From: Planctomycetaceae bacterium
GTDB lineage: Bacteria; Planctomycetota; Planctomycetia; Pirellulales; Pirellulaceae
Direction: 5' to 3'
NCBI GenBank assembly: GCA_005798335.1
Contig: SYJV01000299.1
Span: 1-64,000 of the forward strand
Length of the DNA: 64,000 bases
The notes below the pieces were generated by a model. It saw only the letters and a list, made by a program, of their open reading frames with translations, searched no databases and was not told where the DNA came from. This document shows positions 11,399 through 62,593 of the stretch, piece after piece (position 1 is the first letter of the stretch; each line of letters opens with the position of its first letter). The position numbers and the translations under genes were made by a program.

Positions 11399-12658
11399 AT
11401 GTTAGTTTTGGGACGATTGAATTGGATTGTTCACAGATCGGCTATGGCGATTGGCAGTGCGTTTTTTGTTATTCACGCGTTTGTCGTTCCCATGTGTGCG
11501 CAGGACAAGCCGAGCGAAATTCGTGCTGGGATTGGGAATGATGCCCATGTCCGATACGCGGTTCCAGGAGTAGGCGGCAGCGGTCATCGCACGTCCGTCG
11601 CGAATGGCGAGATTCAATATCCAGTCGTTGTAGTTCGGGGCACGCCCTATGAAATGGGCAGGCATCTTGGCCGATTGATCCGGGCGGAAATGCAGCAGTT
11701 CGTACCGCGCGCGGTGGCAGGCATCGCCAAAGAACTCGGCGTGGATATCGATGTGTTGCAGGACGTTTGGGCGCGTACTTCCGCCTATGCGGACGATCGA
11801 TTGGAGCAAGAGCTAATCGGCTTGGCGGACGGATCGGGCGTTTCGTTGTCCACTTTGCAAGCGATGCACGCGGTACCGCTGTTGATGCCCTATTCGTGCA
11901 GCAGCATTGCCGCGTGGGGAGCAGCGACGGAGGATGGTCACTTGTATCAAACGCGCAATCTGGACTGGAGCCTCGAAGTCGGCGCGCATGAGTTTCCAGT
12001 GATTGTCGTGTACATGCCCAACGATGGTATTCCGCACGTCGTACCGACATTTGCTGGGATGGTTGGCGCTCACACGGGCATGAACATGCGAGGGATTGTG
12101 CTGGCCGAAATGGGAGACGCGTCGGCCAAGGAAGCGCCCTACCAAGTCCACGCGCCTCATTTCACGGCCTATTTTCGCACTCTGCTTTACGACGGCGAAT
12201 CGCTATCGCAAGTGCTGAACATTTTCAAAGCGCAACCTGCGACGAAGCGATACCATTTCGTGTTTGGCGATGGCCAGAATGAAAAACGCGCGGTCAAGGT
12301 GCGAGCGCACTCGCCTGAACCAGCCGAGCGATGGCTGTCGATCTGGAAGGACAACGATCCGACCGACGAGTTCGCGCCGAACGTCCTGAATTGCGTGGTC
12401 TACAACGACGAAGGACGCGGTGCTTTTCCGAGGTTGCAAAAATCACACGGAAAACTGTCGGGTGAGAAACTAGTAGAGTTGGCCAACCAGATTCCCATCA
12501 AAGGCGGCAACGTCGAAAACGTAGTCTACGATGCGACCGGATTGCGGATGTGGGTTTCGTACGCCAAGGGAGAAAAGGAAGCGTTTCAAAGGCCCTATGC
12601 GTACCTCGATCTACGGAAACTCGACTCCGACGGCGATGGCAGAGCTGATCTAAAGTAG
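11399..12658 (+). CDS. C45 family Ntn-hydrolase (acyl-CoA:6-APA acyltransferase-like), exported
   Basis: This 419-aa protein has a hydrophobic leader ending near MCAQD. The body matches the peptidase C45/acyltransferase family: VRGTPYEMGRHLGRLIRAEM near residue 80, the candidate autocatalytic nucleophile Cys167 in PYSCSSIAAWG, then YQTRNLDW, typical of the family's substrate pocket. Members deacylate or hydrolyse amides after self-cleavage before the Cys; in related bacterial proteins the pro-segment is removed. AAGG lies 8 bases upstream of the ATG. The C-terminus ends DSDGDGRADLK, a short Ca-loop-like stretch. It is convergent with the rhomboid gene, with a palindromic element between them. 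Confidence 0.87.
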   Translation: MLVLGRLNWIVHRSAMAIGSAFFVIHAFVVPMCAQDKPSEIRAGIGNDAHVRYAVPGVGGSGHRTSVANGEIQYPVVVVRGTPYEMGRHLGRLIRAEMQQFVPRAVAGIAKELGVDIDVLQDVWARTSAYADDRLEQELIGLADGSGVSLSTLQAMHAVPLLMPYSCSSIAAWGAATEDGHLYQTRNLDWSLEVGAHEFPVIVVYMPNDGIPHVVPTFAGMVGAHTGMNMRGIVLAEMGDASAKEAPYQVHAPHFTAYFRTLLYDGESLSQVLNIFKAQPATKRYHFVFGDGQNEKRAVKVRAHSPEPAERWLSIWKDNDPTDEFAPNVLNCVVYNDEGRGAFPRLQKSHGKLSGEKLVELANQIPIKGGNVENVVYDATGLRMWVSYAKGEKEAFQRPYAYLDLRKLDSDGDGRADLK

Positions 12659-12677
12659 AGAGTGATAATTGCTTGCC

Positions 12678-12820
12678 GAGTTTAGGCACAATACCGTTCA
12701 ACAAACGTGGGATAAGCTTCCAGCTTGTCAATATCTTGTGCAAGCAGTGGCGAAACTCCGCTACAGGTTGACACGCTGGAAGCTTATCCCACGTTCGTTG
12801 AACGGTATTGAGTTTAGGCA
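12678..12820. repeat. MITE-like palindromic element with flanking direct repeats
   Basis: The 36-bp arms at 12689-12724 and 12775-12810 are inverted copies with one mismatch, separated by 50 bases. The 11-base sequence GAGTTTAGGCA occurs directly on both sides (12678-12688 and 12810-12820; the right copy shares its first G with the arm), as a target-site duplication would. There is no ORF inside. The element sits between two convergent genes, so the long RNA hairpin may end transcription from both sides. A related half-copy lies at 62498-62525. Confidence 0.85.
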
Positions 12821-12838
12821 AGCGATTGTGTGCGATCA

Positions 12839-14155
12839 CTACTCCACTTCCAGCACCCCATCCTGAATTTGCTTCTTGGCGAAGGCTGCTAATTTCTGAA
12901 TTTCAGCTTTTTCACTGTCCGACAGAAATGCGGCGTTCAGTCCACGCATGTAGCGAATGGCGTGGCGCGGTCTTTGCTGTTGCAGCCAGGTTTTGATCAG
13001 CTTGGATTGCAACAGGAATCGATGTTTCTCGAACATACCGACGTGGAGTTCTATCAATGGAATTGCTTTGGTCATATCGCCAGCCTTGACGTAGTGTTGC
13101 ATGACCGCGGCAAGTTGAGGCTGGCTCCAGCGCGCATCTGGGTTGCTTTCGCAAATCTTGTTTTGCAGAGCTACCGCCAAATCAAACTGACCTTGTCCAA
13201 TGGCTTGATCGACTTGTCGATTCAGCAGTGATAATGTTTGTGCTGGGTCCTGGGCTGGTGCGGCGATAGTGGTGGTTTGGTTTGTCTGCTTGGCCGCTCG
13301 CTGGCGGCGGGCCTGCTTGCCGACCTGCGAACGCTTCCCTTCGCGGCCGGTCAAATGGGAAATTATGTCGTAGCCTTCGCAATCGACGTATCCGCGCGTG
13401 AGCATAATCAATCCAACTGGCGCACCAACCAAGAACCCAATCAAGTGCAGCGCTTCGCTACTCATATCTGCGCCTCCCAGGAAAAAGAAAGCAACGTTCA
13501 TCGCGACGTAAAAGAACCCAAACATCAAGATCGGCAGTTCAAAGGTAATCGCGCGAAACCCAAAAAACAGCAGCACTTCAAAGTTGTTCAGCGGCGCGAA
13601 AATTACGACCAATGCCATCATGGAAAAGATTGCTCCAGACGCCCCAAGTGCCGCACCGTGCGAAAACCACATCAGAGTCTGCACAAGAAACGCCTGGACG
13701 ACGCCTGTCGCCAAATAGACCAAAGTGAATACTAACCAACCCAACTTGCCCTCAAGCAACAGACCGAACGCCCACAGAAATACCATGTTGCCGATCAAGT
13801 GCCCGAACCCTTGGTGCATGAACATCGATGTGCACCACTGCCACGGCAGATAGCCTTGGCCATACTGCAACATTAAGCGATCCGCTGTAGAGAAATTGAA
13901 AACGGGTTTATACTCTTCCAGCAATTCATCTGGGCTTTCCCCTGCCTCGATCAGCTCGTTCGCTTTGGACTCCATTTCTTCCATGGAGTAGGAGCGGCCA
14001 GTTCGGTCAACAAAATGACTGATCTCGCTCCCATCAACTTCGTTCTCGTTAGGTAAACAGAAGCTGAAAAAGAAAATGACGTTCACCACAATTAGCGTGA
14101 CGGTTGCGATCGGGTAGTGATATATCGGCGCGTCGGTGGAATATGGAATCAACAT
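12839..14155 (-). CDS. Rhomboid family intramembrane serine protease with C-terminal helical extension
   Basis: This 438-aa protein has a six-helix rhomboid core: WCTSMFMHQGFGHLIGNMVFLW (helix 2 His/Asn), the nucleophile in GASGAIF near residue 174, and the catalytic His in LHLIGFLVG near 238. Between helix 1 and the core is a 60-residue charged insertion. After about residue 300, a soluble region with alternating helices resembles TPR-like hairpins (QAIGQGQFDLAVALQNKI, AGDMTKAIPLIELH). The protease cuts membrane proteins within the bilayer; the extension may recruit substrates (inference). It is transcribed toward the palindromic element. Confidence 0.92.
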   Translation of the reverse strand: MLIPYSTDAPIYHYPIATVTLIVVNVIFFFSFCLPNENEVDGSEISHFVDRTGRSYSMEEMESKANELIEAGESPDELLEEYKPVFNFSTADRLMLQYGQGYLPWQWCTSMFMHQGFGHLIGNMVFLWAFGLLLEGKLGWLVFTLVYLATGVVQAFLVQTLMWFSHGAALGASGAIFSMMALVVIFAPLNNFEVLLFFGFRAITFELPILMFGFFYVAMNVAFFFLGGADMSSEALHLIGFLVGAPVGLIMLTRGYVDCEGYDIISHLTGREGKRSQVGKQARRQRAAKQTNQTTTIAAPAQDPAQTLSLLNRQVDQAIGQGQFDLAVALQNKICESNPDARWSQPQLAAVMQHYVKAGDMTKAIPLIELHVGMFEKHRFLLQSKLIKTWLQQQRPRHAIRYMRGLNAAFLSDSEKAEIQKLAAFAKKQIQDGVLEVE

Positions 14156-62497: not shown

Positions 62498-62525
62498 ACG
62501 TGGGATAAGCGCTCAGCTTGTCGAT
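62498..62525 (+). repeat. Half-copy of the CGTGGGATAAGC repeat
   Basis: ACGTGGGATAAGCGCTCAGC followed by TTGTCGAT matches the left arm of the 12.7-kb element, allowing a short variable stretch after GGGATAAGC. No second arm is visible, so it is a lone half-element between serC and serA. Confidence 0.7.
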
Positions 62526-62527
62526 GA

Positions 62528-62547
62528 CAATGGGAAGTTAACCATTG
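62528..62547 (+). terminator. Weak hairpin in the serC-serA gap
   Basis: CAATGG (62528-62533) and CCATTG (62542-62547) form a 6-bp stem with an 8-base loop, followed by GCTTTC. The stem is short and the T run poor, so it may be only an attenuator-like pause or nothing. Confidence 0.3.
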
Positions 62548-62593
62548 CTTTCACAATATGTTGACACAATTTAGAAAATCACCTGAAAATCAA

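Follow-up and report, generated by a model that had tools for sequence, protein, structure and literature searches.

A 122-bp repeat unit of Pirellulaceae as a probable IS4-subgroup MITE carrying a REPIN

The window, a stretch of 64,000 nucleotides from a Planctomycetaceae draft genome of 8.46 Mb in 558 contigs (G000; G, C and L numbers denote genomes, contigs and loci), holds a 122-bp unit that lies 30 bp past the stop codon of a gene with a weak match to the AAT family and adjoins a convergent gene with a rhomboid domain (Table 1). This agrees with an earlier note on this DNA, which had placed a palindromic element between convergent genes. No transposase gene is present inside the unit, and the open reading frame listed over it (12498-12839, minus strand, 113 aa) is mechanical and runs past its boundaries. 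The earlier note had also described 36-bp inverted arms (12689-12724 and 12775-12810) with one difference; that difference is confirmed as base 12703, which is private to the window copy, and the arms in fact reach 43 bp (12689-12731 and 12768-12810), with 95% complementarity around a 36-nt loop. The window copy departs from the unit consensus by three private changes. As single-stranded DNA the unit has a predicted folding energy of -47.9 kcal/mol (z = -13.2), with 0 of 200 shuffles equally stable. A scan of the hairpin against Rfam gave sub-threshold matches only, mostly to miRNA families, and these were rejected.

The ends of the unit are formed by a 17-bp terminal repeat, CAATACCGTTCAACRAA, which is inverted at the other end. 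Outside it, the 11-bp direct repeat of the earlier note, GAGTTTAGGCA, can indeed be seen (12678-12688 and 12810-12820). The target duplication proper is nevertheless 10 bp and not 11, because in every copy aligned G12810 is the closing base of the right terminal repeat; comparison of copies indicates that the G at 12678 matches by chance.

Table 1. Features of the unit and its insertion site, in window coordinates
Feature	Position	Strand	Remarks
Pre-insertion stem-loop, now split by the unit	12665..12829	.	Arms 12665-12677 and 12817-12829
Target duplication AGTTTAGGCA, left, 10 bp	12679..12688	.	Copy comparison
Unit, very probably a non-autonomous IS4-type MITE, 122 bp	12689..12810	.	One of about 175-220 genome copies
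Left terminal inverted repeat CAATACCGTTCAACAAA, 17 bp	12689..12705	+	Consensus ...CGAA; aligned copies
REPIN, 88 bp	12706..12793	.	Two inverted REPs and a 36-nt spacer
Left REP	12707..12729	+	GTGG and 8-bp covarying stem GATAAGCT/AGCTTGTC, loop TCC
GCTTCCAGC, 9-bp insertion site of Tn5/IS50-like ISs in other copies	12716..12724	+	Unoccupied in the window copy
REPIN spacer, 36 nt	12732..12767	.	Either orientation between the arms, depending on the copy
Right REP GTGGGATAAGCTTCCAGCGTGTC	12770..12792	-	One stem mismatch (12774), private to the window copy
Right terminal inverted repeat CAATACCGTTCAACGAA	12794..12810	-	Aligned copies
Target duplication AGTTTAGGCA, right, 10 bp	12811..12820	.	Copy comparison

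The terminal repeat (12 bp, at most one mismatch) has 201 + 200 matches in G000, against 32 + 19 for the reversed control, and the REP core (21 bp, at most three mismatches) has 222 + 223, against 0 + 0; the genome should therefore hold some 175-220 units. Copies elsewhere carry their own, different target duplications, as the mobility proposed in the earlier note would have it: the 10-bp flanks are identical in 39 of the 58 distinct units that could be read with both flanks and match at 9 or more of 10 positions in 47, whereas flanks paired across different units agree at 10/10 in 5 of 3306 pairs and at 9/10 or better in 28. The target preference is itself palindromic, about CGYTTAARCG. The remaining 11 of the 58 units, with flanks matching at fewer than nine positions, require recombination, misassembly or decay. 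Exactly 122 bp is the length of 48 units, with a mean identity to the consensus of 99.2%, and 21 are identical to it; such near-identity, judged from the sequences, is consistent with recent spread. Inspection of a G000 scan for unit ends not followed by the REP found only units and chance matches.

Two further repeats were seen in passing. A further REP of the window, at 62500-62565, is decayed (GTGGGATAAGCGCTCAGCTTGTC) and has no terminal repeats; what is left of the same spacer (ACCATTGCTTTCACAATATGTTGACA) comes after it. At L122:110-205, and in the flanks of several units, units and IS4 copies lie within another palindromic repeat family (CGTTTAACCG, then CGAGCCGAAGGCGACTGCG-like).

Could the structure simply have arisen in place, as a terminator or attenuator between the convergent genes? 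Its position and strong fold would suit such a role, and the empty site, TTGCTTGCCGAGTTTAGGCAAGCG, is itself a small stem-loop, its stem 13 bp long (RNA fold -14.3 kcal/mol, z -4.5). The earlier note, pointing to the symmetry of the outer GCTTGCC sequences, had left room for a simpler hairpin origin; the symmetry is real, and belongs to the empty site. The hundreds of genome-wide core matches, which differ in their flanks and show perfect duplications of 10 bp, leave an origin in place with practically no chance, and for the unit as a whole it is already refuted. A terminator role of the window copy would be a separate matter. The stem-loop that it splits may once have been a terminator. General targeting of hairpins by the element was considered and rejected, the median z being 0.0 over 46 empty sites.

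Between the ends, the payload, a mobile repeat of a second kind, consists of GTGGGATAAGCTTCCAGCTTGTC in inverted pairs. A set of 12 variants of this REP, gathered by a pattern in which the varying positions were unconstrained on each side independently, has compensatory changes at 4 of the 8 stem pairs, with 97.9% of cells paired; 0 of 500 shuffles were as good, and the covariation signal is lost when the stem partner is slid. The 23-mer family occurs in other Pirellulaceae as solo copies, inverted pairs and tandem copies with no such ends nearby. It is also present in genus mates that lack the terminal repeat, among them G011, which has 26 BLAST matches to the REP and zero to the terminal repeat. 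In G000 at least two REPINs are free of terminal repeats (L112 and one REPIN of L113), as are others in the sampled parts of G156 and G185. On sequence grounds, then, the payload is a REPIN, an identification that rests on anatomy, covariation and distribution; a link from REP to RAYT is putative. No tyrosine transposase (RAYT) was found beside the GTGGGATAAGC REP in G000, a genome with 17 matches to Y1 transposases. In a Pirellula MAG, a REPIN of the same family lies about 430 bp from one Y1 open reading frame (L288).

Some neighbouring observations concern REPs more generally. The REPINs at L113:200-310 and 1370-1540 (contig C75 of G000), one without an IS4-type end and one with only the right end, immediately follow the stop codons of paralogues in tandem, which resemble DUF1559-type genes. 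Six planctomycete loci (L267, L269, L287, L291, L294 and L075) have tyrosine transposase genes with multiple perfect GTAG stem-loops in their flanks, apparently RAYT/REP pairs of other types.

What, then, supplied the ends? The terminal repeat was present in 40 of 241 Pirellulaceae genomes searched at up to two mismatches, a level at which single matches can be chance. Among the DDE_Tnp_1 genes of nine of those genomes, scanned for flanking ends, one gene sits between two inverted copies of the end. This locus, L232 in a sister genome, is a 1471-bp element with ends CAATACCGTTCAATGAAG and a 459-aa transposase that combines Nterm_IS4 (PF13006) and DDE_Tnp_1 (PF01609) domains (NCBIfam transpos_IS4_1) and carries the Y(2)R(3)E(6)K motif (YHERWEIEMMYDEQK) found in all intact IS4 transposases that were read. 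Homologues at 66-76% identity occur in G160, G233 and G114. Those of G233 and G114 have the 13-bp end CAATACCGTTCAA on both sides, and that of G160 has it at the one end that was read; the G233 element has a 10/10 duplication (TCGTTAAACG) and that of G114 a 9/10 one. The same terminal repeat ends the IS4-subgroup elements L232, L256 and L257, and related ends, CAATACCGCTAAA among them, occur on more distant transposase homologues (36-43%). Duplications read from the flanks are 10/10 in L256, L258, L259 and L266 and 9/10 in L257 and L260; the flanks of L254, L261, L264 and L265 fall short of the 9/10 level. Genome G156 holds units together with an autonomous IS4 copy, which has no matching flanks.

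A transposase with matching terminal repeats, the counterpart that the earlier note had proposed looking for, thus exists in sister genomes (L232, with its homologues in G233 and G114). Since no autonomous IS4 copy was found in the 558-contig draft of G000 at E <= 1e-30, the link to IS4 consists in shared ends and duplication length and not in co-residence. The other DDE_Tnp_1 genes of G000 (L056-L059) were rejected as partners, having no matching ends, and in other genomes a shared-protein screen of loci that have the ends turned up no transposase adjoining them. The IS4 subgroup is described as elements of 1400-1650 bp with ends in -AATR and duplications of 10-13 bp (De Palmenaer et al. 2008, PMC2266710). 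The -AATR ends, 10-bp duplication and palindromic target preference of the unit, and the YREK transposase of its 1471-bp partner, correspond to this subgroup; the unit differs in having no transposase and a REPIN for its interior. The second conserved block, WTW (PMC2266710, Table 1), is not obvious in these ends. The word MITE is absent from that paper.

A different engine is conceivable: a RAYT tyrosine transposase that moves the entire unit as a REPIN, with the outer 17-bp repeats no more than part of a long REP-like palindrome or of a target palindrome. The interior is after all a REP pair, G000 has its Y1 transposase matches, and PMC3733652 describes REP dimers in palindromic flanks from A. 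variabilis and H. neapolitanus. Against this, the outer repeats are identical to the ends of IS4 elements, stay constant across genera while the REP changes, and enclose payloads that do not look like REPINs in G085 and G096. The precise 10-bp duplications also speak against it; Y1 transposases are not known to make target duplications. Movement of the whole unit by a RAYT is for these reasons very unlikely.

We conclude that the unit is very probably a REPIN-carrying MITE and belongs to the IS4 subgroup of the IS4 family. The earlier note's reading of the palindrome as a small non-autonomous mobile element is supported by the copies, the 10-bp duplications and the partner with the same ends; what it had not named is the internal structure, the REPIN. 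In the mechanism that we propose, an inverted REP pair would at some time have been placed within IS4-type ends. An IS4-type DDE transposase encoded elsewhere, possibly on an element lost from the genome, missing in the draft or brought by transfer, would have bound the 17-bp ends and moved the unit into a ten-base target, which staggered cutting would have duplicated. At the window site, the copy split the small stem-loop between the AAT-match and rhomboid-domain genes.

The REPs of the units are themselves targets. Three Tn5/IS50-like end types are found at one point within them, GCTTCCAGC or its complement, and a 9-bp duplication can be read directly where one contig holds both junctions (L119). 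At this locus (L119:131-449, contig C91 of G000) a non-coding element with Tn5-like ends (CTTGTTATACCCCACATC) and the 9-bp duplication sits in a unit, a MITE inside a MITE. At L060:1-1748 (contig C54 of G000) a Tn5/IS50-like IS, with a full transposase of Tn5-type domains and ends CTTTTTATACCCCACA, has a nearly whole unit on its left and part of another on its right, with about 67 bp shared. After a simple insertion its left flank should reach about 67 bp less far into the unit, an overlap that may stem from recombination between two inserted ISs or from a misassembly or assembly join. Two 131-bp units (L120 and L125) have a tandem copy of the 9-bp site, as expected if such an IS had departed.

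The IS at L060 carries the only transposase gene found physically within a unit in G000, and it was the first candidate for the parent that mobilises the units. It was dropped, as its own ends (CTTTTTATACCCCACA) and the 9-bp duplication that a related element gives inside the REP (L119) both differ from those of the units; another genome has a similar end within a REP where a unit end is not visible (L046). That such an IS drives the units is extremely unlikely: the Tn5-like IS is a guest and not the engine.

The same IS4-type ends bracket other inverted REP pairs elsewhere in the Pirellulaceae: GTAGCCGCGTCTCTCCGAGACGCG in G003, GTAGTGGATCTTGCCAAAGATCC in G112, GTGGCATAGGCCTCTGGCCTGTG in G156, and GTAGTGGACGAGGTTACGAGTCC in G004, G020, G185 and G186, so that at least four different REPINs are enclosed by one terminal repeat. 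In G112 the two arms differ and each stem is intact (GGATCTT/AAGATCC and GGAAGTT/AACTTCC). Duplications of 9-10 bp accompany these units in most of the genomes, if not at every unit read; among the units sampled in G156, the 14 flank pairs include 6 that match at 10 bp, a smaller share than in G000, which may be due to recombination or short-read assembly. The association of end and REPIN is not universal, the units of G085 and G096 having interiors without the look of a REPIN. A separate arrangement is seen at L188:1-650 (G185), a tandem array of at least four copies, with a 167-bp period, of unit-like sequence holding a GTAGTGGACGAGG REPIN.

How did different REPs come to lie within the same ends? 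Repeated capture by IS4-type ends of each genome's local REPIN, through which a repeat normally tied to a RAYT would gain a DDE-type vehicle and reach hundreds of copies, has somewhat less than an even chance. Also possible, if rather doubtful, is descent of all these units from a single ancient IS4-type unit with a REPIN, whose REP has since turned over, an origin compatible with an IS4-type MITE. The REP does follow the terminal repeat directly in several genomes, and GTAGTGG-type REPs are common to G004, G020, G185 and G186. Payloads vary, however, in their length, spacers and REP type (GTGG and GTAG), and in G000, G156 and G185 the local REP also occurs without terminal repeats in the same genome, which suggests a local origin.

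Each component of this arrangement is already known. The GTGG tag, the 23-nt covarying stem-loop and the inverted pairs, with solo and tandem copies in related genomes, are those of the GTAG/GTGG-tagged REPs and REPINs (BIMEs) treated in PMC3116915 and PMC3733652; what differs is that the window REPIN lies within DDE-type ends with a target duplication, and that no RAYT was found beside its REP in G000. The A. variabilis GTAG-15 and H. neapolitanus CGTC-1 dimers likewise lie regularly in a constant outer palindrome, which the passages of PMC3733652 that describe them do not tie to a transposase or credit with a target duplication. For a MITE that bears a REP and is invaded by an IS, Coxiella burnetii QMITE2 is a precedent, its GTAG REP serving as a target of IS1111 (reviewed in PMC10969869). 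The units described here differ in having IS4-type ends and Tn5/IS50-like invaders that make a 9-bp duplication, and several genera show the same arrangement around different REPs. ISRm22, an IS4-family IS, has all nine of its copies in REPs (Tobes and Pareja 2006, PMC1525189); unlike the targets of this and other REP-targeting ISs, most of the REP targets seen here sit in another mobile element.

The system is of interest for combining an IS4-type MITE with a REPIN payload and for recurring with different REPs. It amounts to a nesting on three levels, of a REP in an IS4-type MITE and of Tn5-like ISs landing on the REP, in a host group whose repeats are little described in the literature that we found. 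Such a unit would offer a route for REPs to multiply without a transposase of their own. Since one set of ends carries different REPs from genus to genus, a change of vehicle by REPINs becomes directly testable through sequence comparison.
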